A stretch of 64,000 nucleotides of DNA, taken from positions 712 to 64,711 of the forward strand of contig NZ_FYEK01000012.1 of assembly GCF_900187885.1 (NCBI RefSeq). The letters run 5' to 3'. The notes below the pieces were generated by a model. It saw only the letters and a list, made by a program, of their open reading frames with translations. It did no database searches and had not been told where the DNA came from. Below, piece by piece: positions 3,045 to 59,235 of this stretch. Each line of letters opens with the position of its first letter. Positions within the stretch are counted from its first letter, which is position 1. Made by a program: the position numbers and the translations under genes. Source of the stretch: Thermoflexus hugenholtzii JAD2. Lineage in GTDB: Bacteria > Chloroflexota > Anaerolineae > Thermoflexales > Thermoflexaceae.

Positions 3045-6000
3045 ATGGGATGGATCGAGCGGGACGGGAAAGAGGTGCTGGACCCGGAGGCTCCGGTGCA
3101 GCGGATCTGGCCGGGGTTGCGGCGGCTGCCGGCGGCCCCGATGGGCCTCCCGGATCCTCCGGAGCTCCCTTCAGTGCCCCGGGCGCCCGAGCGGCCGCCT
3201 TTCTACCTCCACGCCCCCTGGGCGTTGATGGCCCTGGTTTACGGGCTGGTCGGCCCGCTGACCGGGATGCGATCGGGCTGGCTCTCGTTGCTCTTCCTTC
3301 CTCTGGCCCTGGGCTCCTCCTTCCTGGCCGCCGAGATCCAGCACCGGTGGAGCCTCTCCCGATACCGCCGGGAGCTTCAGGAGACTTTGGCTCGCTCCGA
3401 GCGTCGGCTCCGGCGTTTCCTCGAAGGGGTGGAGGCGTGGCGTCAGGCGATGGAGGCTTGGGAGCGCACGCTCTTCCCCCCATGGGAGGACCTAGAGGCC
3501 CGGCTGCGAAGCGGATCCGATCTCTGGTTCCGCCGGCCGGAGGATCCCGATTTCCTGCACGTTCGGCTGGGGCTTACGACCGAATCAATCCGTCCCCCTC
3601 AAGGGCGCTGGACCTTGCCCGACCCTGAGGAGGCGCCGCCACCGTTGCGAGGAGCCGCTCACGCTGTCCGGTCGGTCGCCGAAATGCACCGGGAGGTGCC
3701 TCTCGGGCTGGACTTGCGCCGTCCGGTGGTCCTTCGGGTTTTCCCGGGACAGGAGGGAACCCTCCGGCGGATCCTCCTGGAGGTGGCGCTTACCCATTCC
3801 CCCAGCGAGGTGGGGCTCTTCGCGGCCCTCGCCGATCCGGAGTGGTCCTTCCTGCGCTGGTTGCCCCACACGGGAGAGGAACGGGAGGGATGGGCGGATG
3901 GGCCCACCGCGGTCCGGGAGCGGATCTTCGAAGAGTTCTATCGCCGACGGGGACGGGGAGAAGGGATCCTCCCTCACATCTTTCTGTTGCTGGACGCGGA
4001 CGCGCTGGGCGATCCCCGTTTGGGGGAGTTGCTCCGGGAGGGTCCTGTCCGGGGCATTCATCCGGTTTTGATCCTTTCGCCGGGGGAACCGGTTCCGGGG
4101 GAAGTGCGGACCGAGGCTGTCCTGTTCCCCGGGGGTGGGATCTGGATCTCCCGTCGGGATGGAGGGCCGCAGGAGGGGCGGGATCCAGGTCCTTTTCTGA
4201 CCACGGAGCACGCGGAGGCCCTCGCCCAGCGGCTGGCCTCGCTGCGTCCGATGGGCATGCGCCCCTCGCCCCGTCCGGTGTCAGCCCCCGCCCTGTGGGG
4301 GATCCGGGAGCGGGAGACGGCGCCGGAGGACATCCGGCGCCTCCGAGTCCTTCACACAAAGACCCCCTCTCTGGCGGTCCCGCTCGGAACGGAGGAAAGC
4401 GGGGAGCCCTTCGTCCTGGATCTCCACGATCGCGCCCATGGCCCCCACGCGATGGTGATCGGGACCACCGGGTCCGGCAAAAGCGAGGCCCTGCGCACCC
4501 TGGCCCTGGCGCTGGCCCTCCACTTTCCTCCGGAGCGGGTGCAGCTGCTGTTCATCGACTTCAAAGGGGGCGGGGCCTTCGCGCCCCTGGAGCGGCTGCC
4601 CCACTGCGCGGGGCTGCTCTCCAACCTGGACGCCCGGGAGGCGGCCCGGGCGCTGCGGACCCTGGAGGGGGAGCTGGACCGGCGGCAGCGGCTCCTGGCG
4701 GCGCGGGGGGCGGACCACGCGGACCAGATCGGGCTGCCGCATCTGGTGGTGATGGCCGACGAGTTCGCCGAGATGCTGGAGGCGATCCCGGACGGGATGG
4801 CCCGCATGATCCGCCTGGCCCGGCTGGGCCGGAGTCTCGGGATGCACCTGGTGCTGGCCACCCAGCGGCTGGGGAGCGCGGTGCCCGCCGAGCTGCGGGC
4901 CAATCTTCGGGTGCGGATCGCCCTGCGCTGCGAAACCCCGGATGAATCCGCCGCGGTGATCGGGCGGCCGGACGCCGCCTATCTGGTCGGATCGGGGTGG
5001 GCCTTCGTCCAGGTGGGCCAAAATGAGGTGTTCCGGCGGATCCGGGTGGCCTACGCCTCCGGGCGCAGCCTGGGGGCCCAGGAGATCCTTTGGATGGACC
5101 CCGCCGATCCCGCCCGGCGGCTGCGTCGGGAGGTCCAGGGTGGGGACGGGCGGCGGGACCTGGACATCCTGGTGGAGGCGCTCGCCCGGATGGACCGTCC
5201 GGCCCCGCCACTTGCCCCGCCGCCGCTGCCGGCCGATCCGGGCTTCCCGGAGGGGGAAGGGGCCGATCGGATCGGGATCGGGGTGGCGGACTACCCGGAG
5301 GCCGGGGAGATCCGCTGGGTCTTCCTCACCCCTTCCGCGCCGGACTGGCGGCTGGTGGGGCAGGCGGGGACCGGGAAGACGGCGGCCCTGATGGCGGCGG
5401 CCGCGGCGGCGGCCCGGGCCGGCCGGCGGGTGGCGGTGGTGGATGGAGATGGCCGATGGAAGGAGTGTCCGTGGGCCCTTCGCGTTCTCCCGGAGGATCG
5501 GGAAGGGCTCCGCCGGCTGCTTCGAGGGCTCTCCATCGATCCCTCTCCGACTGTTCTCATCTTGGATGCCATGGAGCGGATCCCGGAGGCGGCGATGGGG
5601 GAACTGGAGCCGGGGCTGGAGGGCCTGACGGGACGGCCGGAGCTGTGGATCTGGACGGCCTCCCGCCGCGAGCTCCCCTTGCGTCCCTTGAGAGGCCGCC
5701 CGGCAGTGCGGGTGTTCCTCGCGCTGGATCCCCCAGAGTGGGAGGCCCTTGTGGGGCGACACCCAATCCCGGAGGGGCCCTTTCAGGGCTGGCTGGCCGA
5801 TGGAGAGAGGGGACGGGAGATCCGGTTGCGACGGGCCATGGGACCGCCCCCTCCTCCCGCTCCGCCGCTGGCCCGCTCCTGGCCCGGGCGATGGTCAGAG
5901 CTCCCGCCTCCCACTCGGACGGAAGGCGGATGGTGGTGGCCCCTGGGCTGGCGCGATCTCGACCTGGAGCCCATAGGCGTCCTGCTCTCCAGCCGCCGCC

Positions 6001-6461
6001 CGGCGTTGCGCATCGCGCCCGAGCTGGTGGCGGCCCTGGATCTCTTGCGGCGTTCCCTGTCCCGCGTGGCGGGCGCCGGGATCGCCCTTCGGGCCTGGGA
6101 TCCGGAGGGGGATCTGGAGGAGATCCCTGCGTTGAAGTGCCTCCAGGATCCGCAGAGTTTGCTGGAGGAGTTGGGGCGTCTGGAAGCGGAGGGGATCCCC
6201 TGGTTGGCGGTCCTTCCGGATACCGACGCCTTCCGGATGCGCCTGGGTTATACCGGGGAGATCCCGCCTGCCCTTCGTCGGCCCCGCTGGGGCGCTTACG
6301 TGCTGGTCGGGCGGGAGCGACTGGAGCTGCGGGCCTGGACGCTGAGCCGCTCCCCGGAGGAGCGCCCCTCCCAACCGCCCATTGCGGCGGATCATCCCGG
6401 ACTGGCCTGGCTGAGCGCCCCCGGGGAGGGCGAATGGGTGTTGCTCCCATTGGGCGAATAG
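3045..6461 (+). CDS. EccC/EssC-type FtsK/SpoIIIE ATPase (type VII secretion-like)
   Basis: The 1138-residue protein has two membrane helices at about residues 62-105, then a region with the EccC/EssC-like sequence LWFRRPEDPDFLHVRLG near residue 165. The first FtsK ATPase domain carries Walker A GTTGSGKS (473-480) and Walker B LVVMADE (about 567-573). A second P-loop, GQAGTGKT (772-779), with LILDAMERI near residue 838 shows a second, diverged ATPase module. This membrane-anchored layout with tandem ATPases is that of type VII secretion motors, which pull WXG100-type substrates through the membrane. I chose ATG 3045, with GGAG 10 bases upstream and just after the preceding stop, over an in-frame upstream codon at 2841 that would overlap that gene. 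No WXG100 gene is visible; the neighbours are Tad-type genes, which is unusual. Confidence 0.8.
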   Translation: MGWIERDGKEVLDPEAPVQRIWPGLRRLPAAPMGLPDPPELPSVPRAPERPPFYLHAPWALMALVYGLVGPLTGMRSGWLSLLFLPLALGSSFLAAEIQHRWSLSRYRRELQETLARSERRLRRFLEGVEAWRQAMEAWERTLFPPWEDLEARLRSGSDLWFRRPEDPDFLHVRLGLTTESIRPPQGRWTLPDPEEAPPPLRGAAHAVRSVAEMHREVPLGLDLRRPVVLRVFPGQEGTLRRILLEVALTHSPSEVGLFAALADPEWSFLRWLPHTGEEREGWADGPTAVRERIFEEFYRRRGRGEGILPHIFLLLDADALGDPRLGELLREGPVRGIHPVLILSPGEPVPGEVRTEAVLFPGGGIWISRRDGGPQEGRDPGPFLTTEHAEALAQRLASLRPMGMRPSPRPVSAPALWGIRERETAPEDIRRLRVLHTKTPSLAVPLGTEESGEPFVLDLHDRAHGPHAMVIGTTGSGKSEALRTLALALALHFPPERVQLLFIDFKGGGAFAPLERLPHCAGLLSNLDAREAARALRTLEGELDRRQRLLAARGADHADQIGLPHLVVMADEFAEMLEAIPDGMARMIRLARLGRSLGMHLVLATQRLGSAVPAELRANLRVRIALRCETPDESAAVIGRPDAAYLVGSGWAFVQVGQNEVFRRIRVAYASGRSLGAQEILWMDPADPARRLRREVQGGDGRRDLDILVEALARMDRPAPPLAPPPLPADPGFPEGEGADRIGIGVADYPEAGEIRWVFLTPSAPDWRLVGQAGTGKTAALMAAAAAAARAGRRVAVVDGDGRWKECPWALRVLPEDREGLRRLLRGLSIDPSPTVLILDAMERIPEAAMGELEPGLEGLTGRPELWIWTASRRELPLRPLRGRPAVRVFLALDPPEWEALVGRHPIPEGPFQGWLADGERGREIRLRRAMGPPPPPAPPLARSWPGRWSELPPPTRTEGGWWWPLGWRDLDLEPIGVLLSSRRPALRIAPELVAALDLLRRSLSRVAGAGIALRAWDPEGDLEEIPALKCLQDPQSLLEELGRLEAEGIPWLAVLPDTDAFRMRLGYTGEIPPALRRPRWGAYVLVGRERLELRAWTLSRSPEERPSQPPIAADHPGLAWLSAPGEGEWVLLPLGE

Positions 6462-55244: not shown

Positions 55245-56705
55245 TTAACCCTTGATCACGGCGATCGGCCGCAGCCGGGCCACTTTCTTGGCGATCCCGG
55301 CGTGGTGGACCACCTCGACCACGCGGCTGACGTCCTTGTAGGCTCGGGGGGCCTCCTCGGCCAGGCCGGCCATGGAGCCGGCGCGGACCACAATGCCCTG
55401 GCTCTCCAGCTCCGCCTTGAGCTTCTCGCCGCGGATCTCCCGCTTGGCCTGGGCGCGGCTCATGACGCGGCCGGCCCCGTGGCAGGTGCTCCCGAAGGTC
55501 TGGGCCATGGAGCCGGGCGTCCCCAGCAGCACGTAGGAGGCGGTGCCCATGGAGCCGGGGATCAGGACCGGCTGACCGATGTCGGCGTATTTCTTCGGCA
55601 GGCCGGGAGAGCCCGGCCCCCAGGCACGGGTCGCCCCTTTGCGGTGCACGCACACCGTCATCCGCTGGCCGTCGATCTCGTGGGTCTCGATCTTGCCCAT
55701 GTTGTGGGCGATGTCGTAGACCTGCCAGACATCGTGGGCGATGCCCTTCGGTTTGAGGACCTCCTCGAAGCTCTTGCGGATGTAGTGGGCCAGGATCTGG
55801 CGGTTGCAGAAGGCGAAGTTCGCCGCGCAGGCCATGGCCTGGATGTAGTCCTGGCCCTCGGGGCTGTCGATGGGGGCGCACATCAGCTCTTTATCCGGTA
55901 GCTTGATGCCGTATTTATGGATGACCCGTTCGAAGCGCTGCAGGTAATCGGTGCAGATCTGGTGGCCGAAGCCCCGCGAGCCACAGTGGATCTGCACGGC
56001 CACCTGCCCCTTGAAGAGCCCCATACGCTCTGCGGCTACCGAATCGAAGATCTCGTCTACCACATCCACTTCGATGAAGTGGTTTCCTGCGCCCAGGGTG
56101 CCCAGTTGATCCTTCCCCCGCTCCTTGGCCTTGGGGGTGGCCTTGTCGGGGTCGGCGTTGGGCATGCGGCCGAACTCCTCGGTGCACTCCAGGTCCTCGG
56201 GCCGGGCGTAGCCGTGACGAAGGGCCCAGCGGGCCCCCTCGGCGAGCACCTCATCCAGCTGCCGCGCCGTCAGTGGGACGTGGCCCTCGGAGCCCACGCC
56301 GCTGGGGCAGTTGTAGTAAATCCGGGTGGCCAGCTCCGCCAGATGGGGCGCGATCTGCTCCTCGGTCAGGTTGGTCGCCAGCAGACGAACGCCGCAGTTA
56401 ATGTCATAGCCCACTGCCCCGGGAGAGATGATTCCGCCTGGGACCTTGCTGGCCATCACCCCACCCACCGGCATCCCATAGCCTTGATGAACATCTGGCA
56501 TAACCACCACGTAACCTACCAGACCAGGCAGCGAAGCCACATTCACCGCCTGGTGGACCGAAAGGTCCCCCAGGGCGTCCTCCAGCAGCTCCTCGTCCGC
56601 GTAGATGCGGACGGGGACGTTCATCCGCGGGTCAAAGGACGTGGGCAGCTCCCAGAGATACTCATTGATCCGACGGAAATCCTGCTTGCGAATCTCCCGA
56701 GCCAT
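55245..56705 (-). CDS. rtcB: RNA-splicing ligase RtcB
   Basis: The 486-residue protein matches RtcB over its length. [18 protein letters not shown] near residue 70, [17 protein letters not shown] with the metal-binding Cys, [25 protein letters not shown] and [14 protein letters not shown] are present; the His in CHGAGR is the residue that is guanylylated. RtcB joins 2',3'-cyclic phosphate and 5'-OH RNA ends using GTP and Mn2+, in tRNA splicing or RNA repair. The archease gene precedes it by 58 bases, which supports a working ligase pair. ATG 56705 follows AGGGGGTGA. Confidence 0.95.
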
Positions 56706-56763
56706 CTCTCACCCCCTCTATTCCATCCACTGCCGGAACGCAGGACGCCTCCGGGCATTGTGT

Positions 56764-57207
56764 TCACACGTCGAACACCAGCTCCACCACGTAGAGGCCG
56801 TCCTCCTGCCGGATGGCCACGTTGTGATACGTGACCGCCTTAATATATTTTCGCACGGATTCCGGGCGCCCTCCATAGGCGGCGGCGCGGAGCCGGCCGA
56901 TGGACTCCGGATCCTCGGGATCCGGAAGGTGGAGCTCCAGGATCTCGAAGCGCTTGAAGGCCAGCCCCTCGCGCTCCGTGAGGTAGACCAGCTCGTTCAG
57001 CCAGGCCACCAGCAGGCCTTCGGGGCTGGCGGCTTCGACCAGGGCCTCCCGCCGCTCCGCCTCGGGCACGGTTTCCAGGTCCGTGAGCAGGCTATACATC
57101 CCCAGGGCGGCGTGGGCGAACAGCTCCGGCAGCGTGCGTCCATAGGCCCGGATGGCCCAGTCCGCCGTGTGGGGGATCTCCTCAAAGGGCACCGTCAGCT
57201 CGGGCAT
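56764..57207 (-). CDS. Archease
   Basis: The 147-residue protein begins MPELTVPFEEIPHTADWAIRA, with HTAD being the archease metal-binding signature, and continues with LFAHAALGMYSLL and the C-terminal KAVTYHNVAIRQEDGLYVVELVFDV, which ends in the conserved acidic residue. Archease speeds RtcB turnover by promoting guanylylation. I chose ATG 57207, which follows GGGAGGGAACCC; the longer frame runs into selD. It is placed directly before rtcB. Confidence 0.93.
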   Translation of the reverse strand: MPELTVPFEEIPHTADWAIRAYGRTLPELFAHAALGMYSLLTDLETVPEAERREALVEAASPEGLLVAWLNELVYLTEREGLAFKRFEILELHLPDPEDPESIGRLRAAAYGGRPESVRKYIKAVTYHNVAIRQEDGLYVVELVFDV

Positions 57208-57257
57208 CGGGTTCCCTCCCGGCAAAGGATGGAGGAGCGGGGGGACGCGGGGCCCGG

Positions 57258-58307
57258 CTACGGGATCACGAGGATCCCGGGCTCTCCTTCGAAGCGGCCG
57301 ATCACCCATGCGGGCTCGCCGGCCTCAGCCATGCGGGCGAGGAAGGCCTCCGCATCCCGGGGCGCGAAGGCCAGCAGCAACCCGCCGGAGGTCTGGGGAT
57401 CATACAGCAGGGCCTCTGTGCGTTCGTCGATGGAGGGATCCAGCGCGACATGGGGGCGATAAAAGTCCCGGTTGCGCCAGAGCCCGCCGGCGAAGGCCTC
57501 GGCCTCGGCGCAGCGCTGCGCACCCCGCATCCAGGGCAGCCGCCCGACCTCCAGGGTCAACCCCACCCCCGAGGCCTCGACCATCTCCCAGGCGTGGCCC
57601 AGCAGCCCGAACCCGGTGACATCGGTGGCGGCGTGGGCGTTGCTTTTGACCGCCAGCCGGGCCGCCGTCTTGTTCAGGCGCATCATCCAGGCCATGGCCT
57701 CCTCGACCTCCTCCGGCCGGGCCAGGTCCCGCTTGAGGGCGGTGGTGATCACCCCGCTGCCCAGGGGCTTGGTCAGCACCAGCACGTCCCCCGGCCGGGC
57801 CCCGGACTTCCGCAAGATGCGCTGGGGGTGGACGATGCCGGTGACCGCCAGCCCGAACTTGGGCTCGCGATCGCTGACCGTGTGGCCACCCAGGACCACC
57901 CCGCCTGCCTCCCGCACTTTCTCCGCAGCTCCCTTCAGGATCCGGACCAGGATCTCTGGATCCAGTCCCTCCGGGAAGGCCACCAGGTTCAGGGCGAAGC
58001 GGACCTCGCCGCCCATGGCGTAGATGTCGCTCATGGCGTTGGCGGCGGCGATGGCCCCATAGGCGTAAGGGTCGTCCACCACTGGCGGGAAAAAGTCCAC
58101 CGACTGGACAAGGGCAGTCTCCTCATCCAGCTGGTAGACGGCCGCGTCATCCGGCGCCTCCAGCCCGACCAGGACCGCCGGATGCGGCCGGGATGGGAGC
58201 TCTTCATGGAGCCGGCGCAGCACGTGCGCCAGGGCCTCCGGGCCCATCTTGCTGGCTCAACCTGCGCACGAGGCGAGCGCCGTTAACCGAACGGTCTTGT
58301 TGTCCAA
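57258..58307 (-). CDS. selD: Selenophosphate synthetase containing selenocysteine (Sec17)
   Basis: Read from TTG 58307 the protein has 349 residues if the TGA at 58259-58257 is read as selenocysteine 17. The N-terminus is then LTALASCAG-U-ASKMGPEALAHVL, matching the Cys/Sec active-site loop of SelD where the catalytic residue is Cys17 in E. coli. The TTG has GAGGAG 8 bases upstream, while the ATG 58247 after the TGA has no good SD and would lose the catalytic loop. DDAAVYQL, FFPPVVDDPYAYG, GGHTVSD and LLYDPQTSGGLL are typical. It makes selenophosphate from selenide and ATP for tRNA-Sec. A standard gene call would truncate it. Confidence 0.9.
58229..58259 (-). promoter_or_regulatory. Candidate bacterial SECIS hairpin after the selD TGA
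   Basis: On the minus strand, beginning at the TGA (58259), GGGCC (bases 15-19) and GGCCC (bases 24-28) form a stem with a CGGA loop, and CCA/TGG pair further out across an internal loop. The loop guanines lie 17 bases after the TGA, within the usual distance for SelB-binding bacterial SECIS elements. Confidence 0.6.
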
Positions 58308-58416
58308 CGCCTTGCTCCTCTCACGTCGTGTGGCGTTGCGCGCCGCGCAATGGATCCGCCAGCGCCGCTATGAAGTATATCCCGAGCCGGACGGAGGTTC
58401 CCATCCCTTTCAGGCC

Positions 58417-59235
58417 TCAGGCCCATGTGATCCGGGTCCCCTGGATGCGGAGGGGATCCCGGAGGGCGTCTCGGAGGGCGCCCGGACGTCGTCCCGAGAA
58501 GATCCAGACTTCCAGGCGGGGATCCCGTTCCACCCAGCGCAGGGCCATCTCCAGCTTGGCTCGCATCCCCCCGGTGACGTCGATCCCATGGGATCCCCCG
58601 ACGGCGTGGAGGATCTCCCGAAACCGTGCGGGGGTGAGGTGGGGGATGACCTGGTGTCCTTCGGGCCCGTCGGCCAGCACCCCGGCCACCTCGCCGACCA
58701 GCAGGATGCGGGTGGGGCGGAGGACCTCCAGCAGGGCATCGAACACTGCCTCCGTGGAGAGGATCGTCGCTCCCCGCTCCCGATCGAAGACCACATCCCC
58801 GCCGGTCAGGGGGATCAGGCCGACCTCCCACGCCCGCTGGAAGGCCCGGGCCTCGAAGGCGATGGGGATCCCGCCGGCAGCCTCCGCGACGGCGGAGGGA
58901 GGGATGCTGAGGGTGGGCAGGCCGGCCGCGTGGAAGGCGCGGCGGACGTGCATGTGGAGCTCCGCGGCCGCCAGGGCCACCTCCGCGAACCCCCACCAGT
59001 CCTCCGGGCGGGAGATCCCTTCATAGATGCGGGTGCGGGCGGCGGCGGCGTGGCCGAAGGAGCCGCTGCCGTGGCCGACCAGGATCCGCAGCCCGGGCCG
59101 CTCCCCCAGGGCCTCGCGGATCTCCTCCGCCAGCCGGCGGATCACCCGCAGGCGCGCCCGCCGCTCCCGGCGCTTGTCGGTGATCAGGGAGCCGCCCAGC
59201 TTGATGAAGATCCGTTCTCCCGTTCCTTCACGCAT
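58417..59235 (-). CDS. Isopentenyl phosphate kinase
   Basis: The 272-residue protein is an amino-acid-kinase-fold enzyme. RIFIKLGGSLITDK near residues 8-21 is the nucleotide-binding N-terminus, LVGHGSGSFGHAAA near residue 55 carries the catalytic His seen in isopentenyl phosphate kinases, and TGGDVVFD and DVTGGMRAKLEMA complete the ATP site. It phosphorylates isopentenyl phosphate to isopentenyl diphosphate, the last step of an alternative mevalonate pathway known in archaea and in some Chloroflexi. The other pathway genes are not in the window. It starts 6 bases after the HDAC stop. Confidence 0.88.
   Translation of the reverse strand: MREGTGERIFIKLGGSLITDKRRERRARLRVIRRLAEEIREALGERPGLRILVGHGSGSFGHAAAARTRIYEGISRPEDWWGFAEVALAAAELHMHVRRAFHAAGLPTLSIPPSAVAEAAGGIPIAFEARAFQRAWEVGLIPLTGGDVVFDRERGATILSTEAVFDALLEVLRPTRILLVGEVAGVLADGPEGHQVIPHLTPARFREILHAVGGSHGIDVTGGMRAKLEMALRWVERDPRLEVWIFSGRRPGALRDALRDPLRIQGTRITWA

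Follow-up and report, generated by a model that had tools for sequence, protein, structure and literature searches.

A selD gene of Thermoflexus hugenholtzii with an in-frame UGA, predicted to encode a selenocysteine-containing SelD

Bacterial SelD (selenide water dikinase) proteins that themselves contain selenocysteine (Sec) have long been known (PMC4561486, PMC1794560), and Sec, always at the same position, is encoded by 19% of the SelD genes in a prokaryotic reference set (PMC4561486). The biology of SelD and the pathway of Sec insertion have been described (PMC4561486 and PMC1794560, respectively). The gene considered here lies in a stretch of 64,000 nucleotides from the thermophilic bacterium Thermoflexus hugenholtzii JAD2 (the window) and resembles the described bacterial Sec-containing SelD/SPS2 (TIGR00476; PMC4561486) in the enzyme encoded and in the predicted position of Sec. 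It also shares with that system a UGA codon followed by a hairpin and a genome carrying selA, selB, and tRNA-Sec, with no essential difference (PMC4561486). An initial annotation of this DNA had called the product a hidden selenoprotein and had pointed out that SelD is often a selenoprotein in selenium users. The latter has been known for many years (PMC4561486), and the selenoprotein reading is upheld by the analyses below, but "hidden" is overstated for a textbook family whose Sec-containing form is the normal one in the phylum.

The predicted selD occupies positions 57258 to 58307 on the minus strand and would encode 349 residues with Sec at residue 17. The frame opens with TTG (58307 to 58305) and runs through 15 codons to a TGA at codon 17 (58259 to 58257), the single in-frame TGA, from which 332 codons lead to a TAG stop (57260 to 57258); the initial annotation had located the start, the internal TGA, and the SelD body in the same places. 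The nearest in-frame stop upstream is a TAG at 58370, and TTG 58307 is the sole in-frame ATG, GTG, or TTG between that stop and the TGA. A GAGGAG ribosome-binding site (58315 to 58320, minus strand) precedes the start, as had been reported, although 7 bases rather than the reported 8 separate the two; a purine-rich tract is found at a similar distance in five other Thermoflexus copies.

The neighborhood of selD (55245 to 59235 in the window, all on the minus strand) is ordered kinase, selD, archease, rtcB. The next gene downstream encodes an archease (56764 to 57207; PF01951), which is considered a neighbor with no role in selenium use implied, and it is followed by a gene for the RNA ligase RtcB (55245 to 56705; PF01139). 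The kinase belongs to the amino acid kinase family (PF00696) and is probably an isopentenyl phosphate kinase. Both rtcB and the kinase gene adjoin selD in four public Thermoflexus loci (L073 to L076); neither was found next to selD in the remaining public loci examined.

The translated frame matched the TIGR00476 profile with 385.3 bits (E value of 1.9e-115; profile positions 1 to 310 of 311), exceeding at full length the curated equivalog cut-off of 125 bits, and the match covered residues 7 to 318 and thus ran across the TGA. In an alignment of the N terminus with Escherichia coli SelD (PDB 3u0o), with which the Thermoflexus protein has its family and catalytic loop in common, the predicted Sec17 fell on the catalytic Cys17, and Lys20 of the catalytic loop was kept. 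A SelD is expected to have Cys or Sec as residue 17 and Lys as residue 20 (E. coli numbering), and U17 and K20 are present, the loop reading GCGCK in E. coli and GUASK in Thermoflexus. The residues flanking the TGA align with both the SelD model and the E. coli protein, which bears out the earlier assignment of this segment to the SelD catalytic loop. A CxxU redox motif formed by Cys14 and Sec17 was rejected because Thermoflexus has Cys at position 14 where several relatives of the class have Ala or Ser.

A purely mechanical open reading frame call places the start of selD at ATG 58247, yielding a SelD-like protein of 329 residues, and under that call the sequence upstream would be noncoding. 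The shorter version drops residues 1 to 20, including residue 17 and Lys20, and hence the active site, a loss that had been foreseen in the initial annotation. Within the genus, codons 2 to 16 of the longer frame differ pairwise by 67 synonymous and 13 nonsynonymous changes, with second positions unchanged, so that the codon conservation upstream of the TGA whose absence from related strains would have spoken against the Sec-containing reading is in fact seen. In comparison, the 20 triplets before the start show 22 synonymous versus 255 nonsynonymous differences, and the start codon, which alternates between TTG and GTG, is exactly where coding-type conservation begins. By this pattern of substitution, the segment upstream of the TGA is coding. 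Translation from ATG 58247 is extremely unlikely in view of these codon differences, the alignment of SelD through the residues flanking the TGA, and the missing catalytic loop of the truncated form.

Full-length SelD matches with one in-frame TGA each were found in six Thermoflexus genomes (85 to 100% identity), and the TGA is kept by all of the full-length SelD sequences found in Thermoflexus. When the class was read codon by codon, all 32 copies counted had the TGA at that codon, after exclusion of one Cys-type copy and of another in which the site reads as Ns. The Cys-type copy lies in a frame of 770 residues, and its genome also has a TGA-containing SelD. Because the TGA is kept at codon 17 in six Thermoflexus and 24 other genomes of the class and is flanked in them by conserved protein sequence, its conservation is, as judged from these alignments, far beyond chance. 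The stop codon itself, and nothing else, would favor a Cys-containing SelD whose TGA arose by sequencing error or by a pseudogenizing mutation. The protein downstream of the TGA is intact and conserved, and that reading, whose probability is vanishingly small, is refuted because independent assemblies carry the same TGA (the six of Thermoflexus, one of them a single contig, and those of the 24 other genomes). In one relative of the class (L069; G009:C278), two SelD copies stand in tandem (4535 to 5563 and 5756 to 6256), each with a TGA at codon 17; the second copy ends at the contig end.

Of the 150 SelD matches that scored best in a sample of the phylum, 127 held one in-frame TGA and 23 held none, in a hand count that accepted a TGA anywhere in the match and in which one of the 23 ends before the site. 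The Sec-containing form is the usual SelD of the phylum, and the Thermoflexus gene is an ordinary member. Among 80 public selD loci from several phyla, codon 17 was TGA in 60, TGC or TGT in 20, and nothing else.

Bacterial SECIS elements are recognized as a hairpin shortly after the UGA with a G within the first two bases of its loop. Such a hairpin, CUGGCGCA-CGUGC-UGCGCCGG, is present in selD at 58212 to 58232 (minus strand), with an apical stem of GGCGCA/UGCGCC and a CGUGC loop that begins 32 nt past the UGA. The strongest synonymous-codon constraint in the gene peaks there: when 330 eight-codon windows were ranked for this constraint, the first three places went to those beginning at codons 24, 23, and 25, all of which lie over the hairpin. 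The six apical pairs were formed in 171 of 186 possible cases across 31 genes of the class, compared with 121.8 ± 4.8 (maximum, 137) in shuffles of synonymous codons that kept each gene's own codon usage, none of the 1,000 trials being as good as the real genes. Compensated variants were seen (GACGCA/UGCGUC in L026 and UGCGCA/UGCGCA in L046), and in 6 of the 32 class copies at least two of the six apical pairs are not formed. Folding energy was moderately better than that of shuffles for the hairpin region, with a z score of −2.23 for the hairpin alone and a weaker −1.63 for the whole 51-nt region, a modest score that is expected for a GC-rich gene; since the whole region folds only weakly better than shuffles, the case for a SECIS element rests on selection and not on energy. 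In many other SelD genes compared, the best hairpin had its loop 16 to 20 nt after the UGA, in contrast to 32 nt in Thermoflexus. The hairpins among the compared loci fall into two position classes, with the loop about 32 to 33 nt or about 16 to 20 nt after the UGA, which suggests that the SECIS element has shifted within selD during evolution.

The T. hugenholtzii assembly contains selA (559 bits; cut-off, 268), selB (295.7 bits, or 323.6 including the C-terminal part; cut-off, 242), and a tRNA-Sec with a UCA (TCA) anticodon (78.1 bits; gathering score, 47), the other match over the tRNA-Sec cut-off being a tRNA-Ser. All three components had been predicted from selD, and an absence of selB and tRNA-Sec had been named as the observation that would overturn the Sec-containing reading; both are present. 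It is conceivable that a near-cognate or suppressor tRNA reads the UGA as an ordinary amino acid, but such read-through is highly unlikely given the full Sec system in the genome, the restriction of non-TGA codons at position 17 to Cys (20 of the 80 loci), and a hairpin under selection.

A second UGA-containing gene in the T. hugenholtzii genome (L072:1495-1737; G000:C29) would encode a SelW-like protein. It spans 80 codons, belongs to the Rdx/SelW family, and begins MLRVEIEYCAV-U-GYLP, with the TGA in the classic CxxU site and, just downstream, a hairpin similar to that of selD (CGGUCA-GGU-UGACCG). Other uses of selenium were sought and set aside. Formate dehydrogenase had no TGA-containing match in any member of the genus, and a profile search of Thermoflexus did not find selenouridine synthase, the mnmH matches being only 24-residue fragments of 24 bits (cut-off, 220). 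A TGA version of peroxiredoxin was not found in the T. hugenholtzii genome and was present in two relatives within the genus, as AhpC/TSA-family matches with one in-frame TGA each (G003:C116:41-415 and G002:C74:3242-3613).

The frame, its conservation, the constraint on the hairpin, selA, selB, tRNA-Sec, and the second UGA-containing selenoprotein gene are all in evidence at the level of sequence, and no counter-evidence to the Sec-containing reading was found. The gene is almost certainly a functional selD that starts at TTG 58307 and whose product is itself a selenoprotein with Sec17. Established family biology points to an active SelD enzyme and to insertion of Sec in vivo, as follows. Ribosomes would start at TTG 58307; at the UGA, SelB carrying Sec-tRNA-Sec would bind the hairpin just downstream, and Sec would be inserted. 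With Sec17 and Lys20, the full-length enzyme would then convert selenide and ATP into selenophosphate, which SelA would use in producing the Sec-tRNA needed by SelD itself and by at least one client, the SelW-like protein.

It is tentatively proposed, as a possibility more doubtful than probable, that Thermoflexus maintains its entire Sec system to serve very few proteins, SelD and the SelW-like protein; if so, SelD would be one of the main clients of its own Sec system. The understanding of selenium biology is unchanged by a Sec-containing SelD in this genus. The re-annotation mends a call of the start site and the stop codon by which the active site of SelD would be lost, and Thermoflexus is thereby marked as a Sec-using genus.
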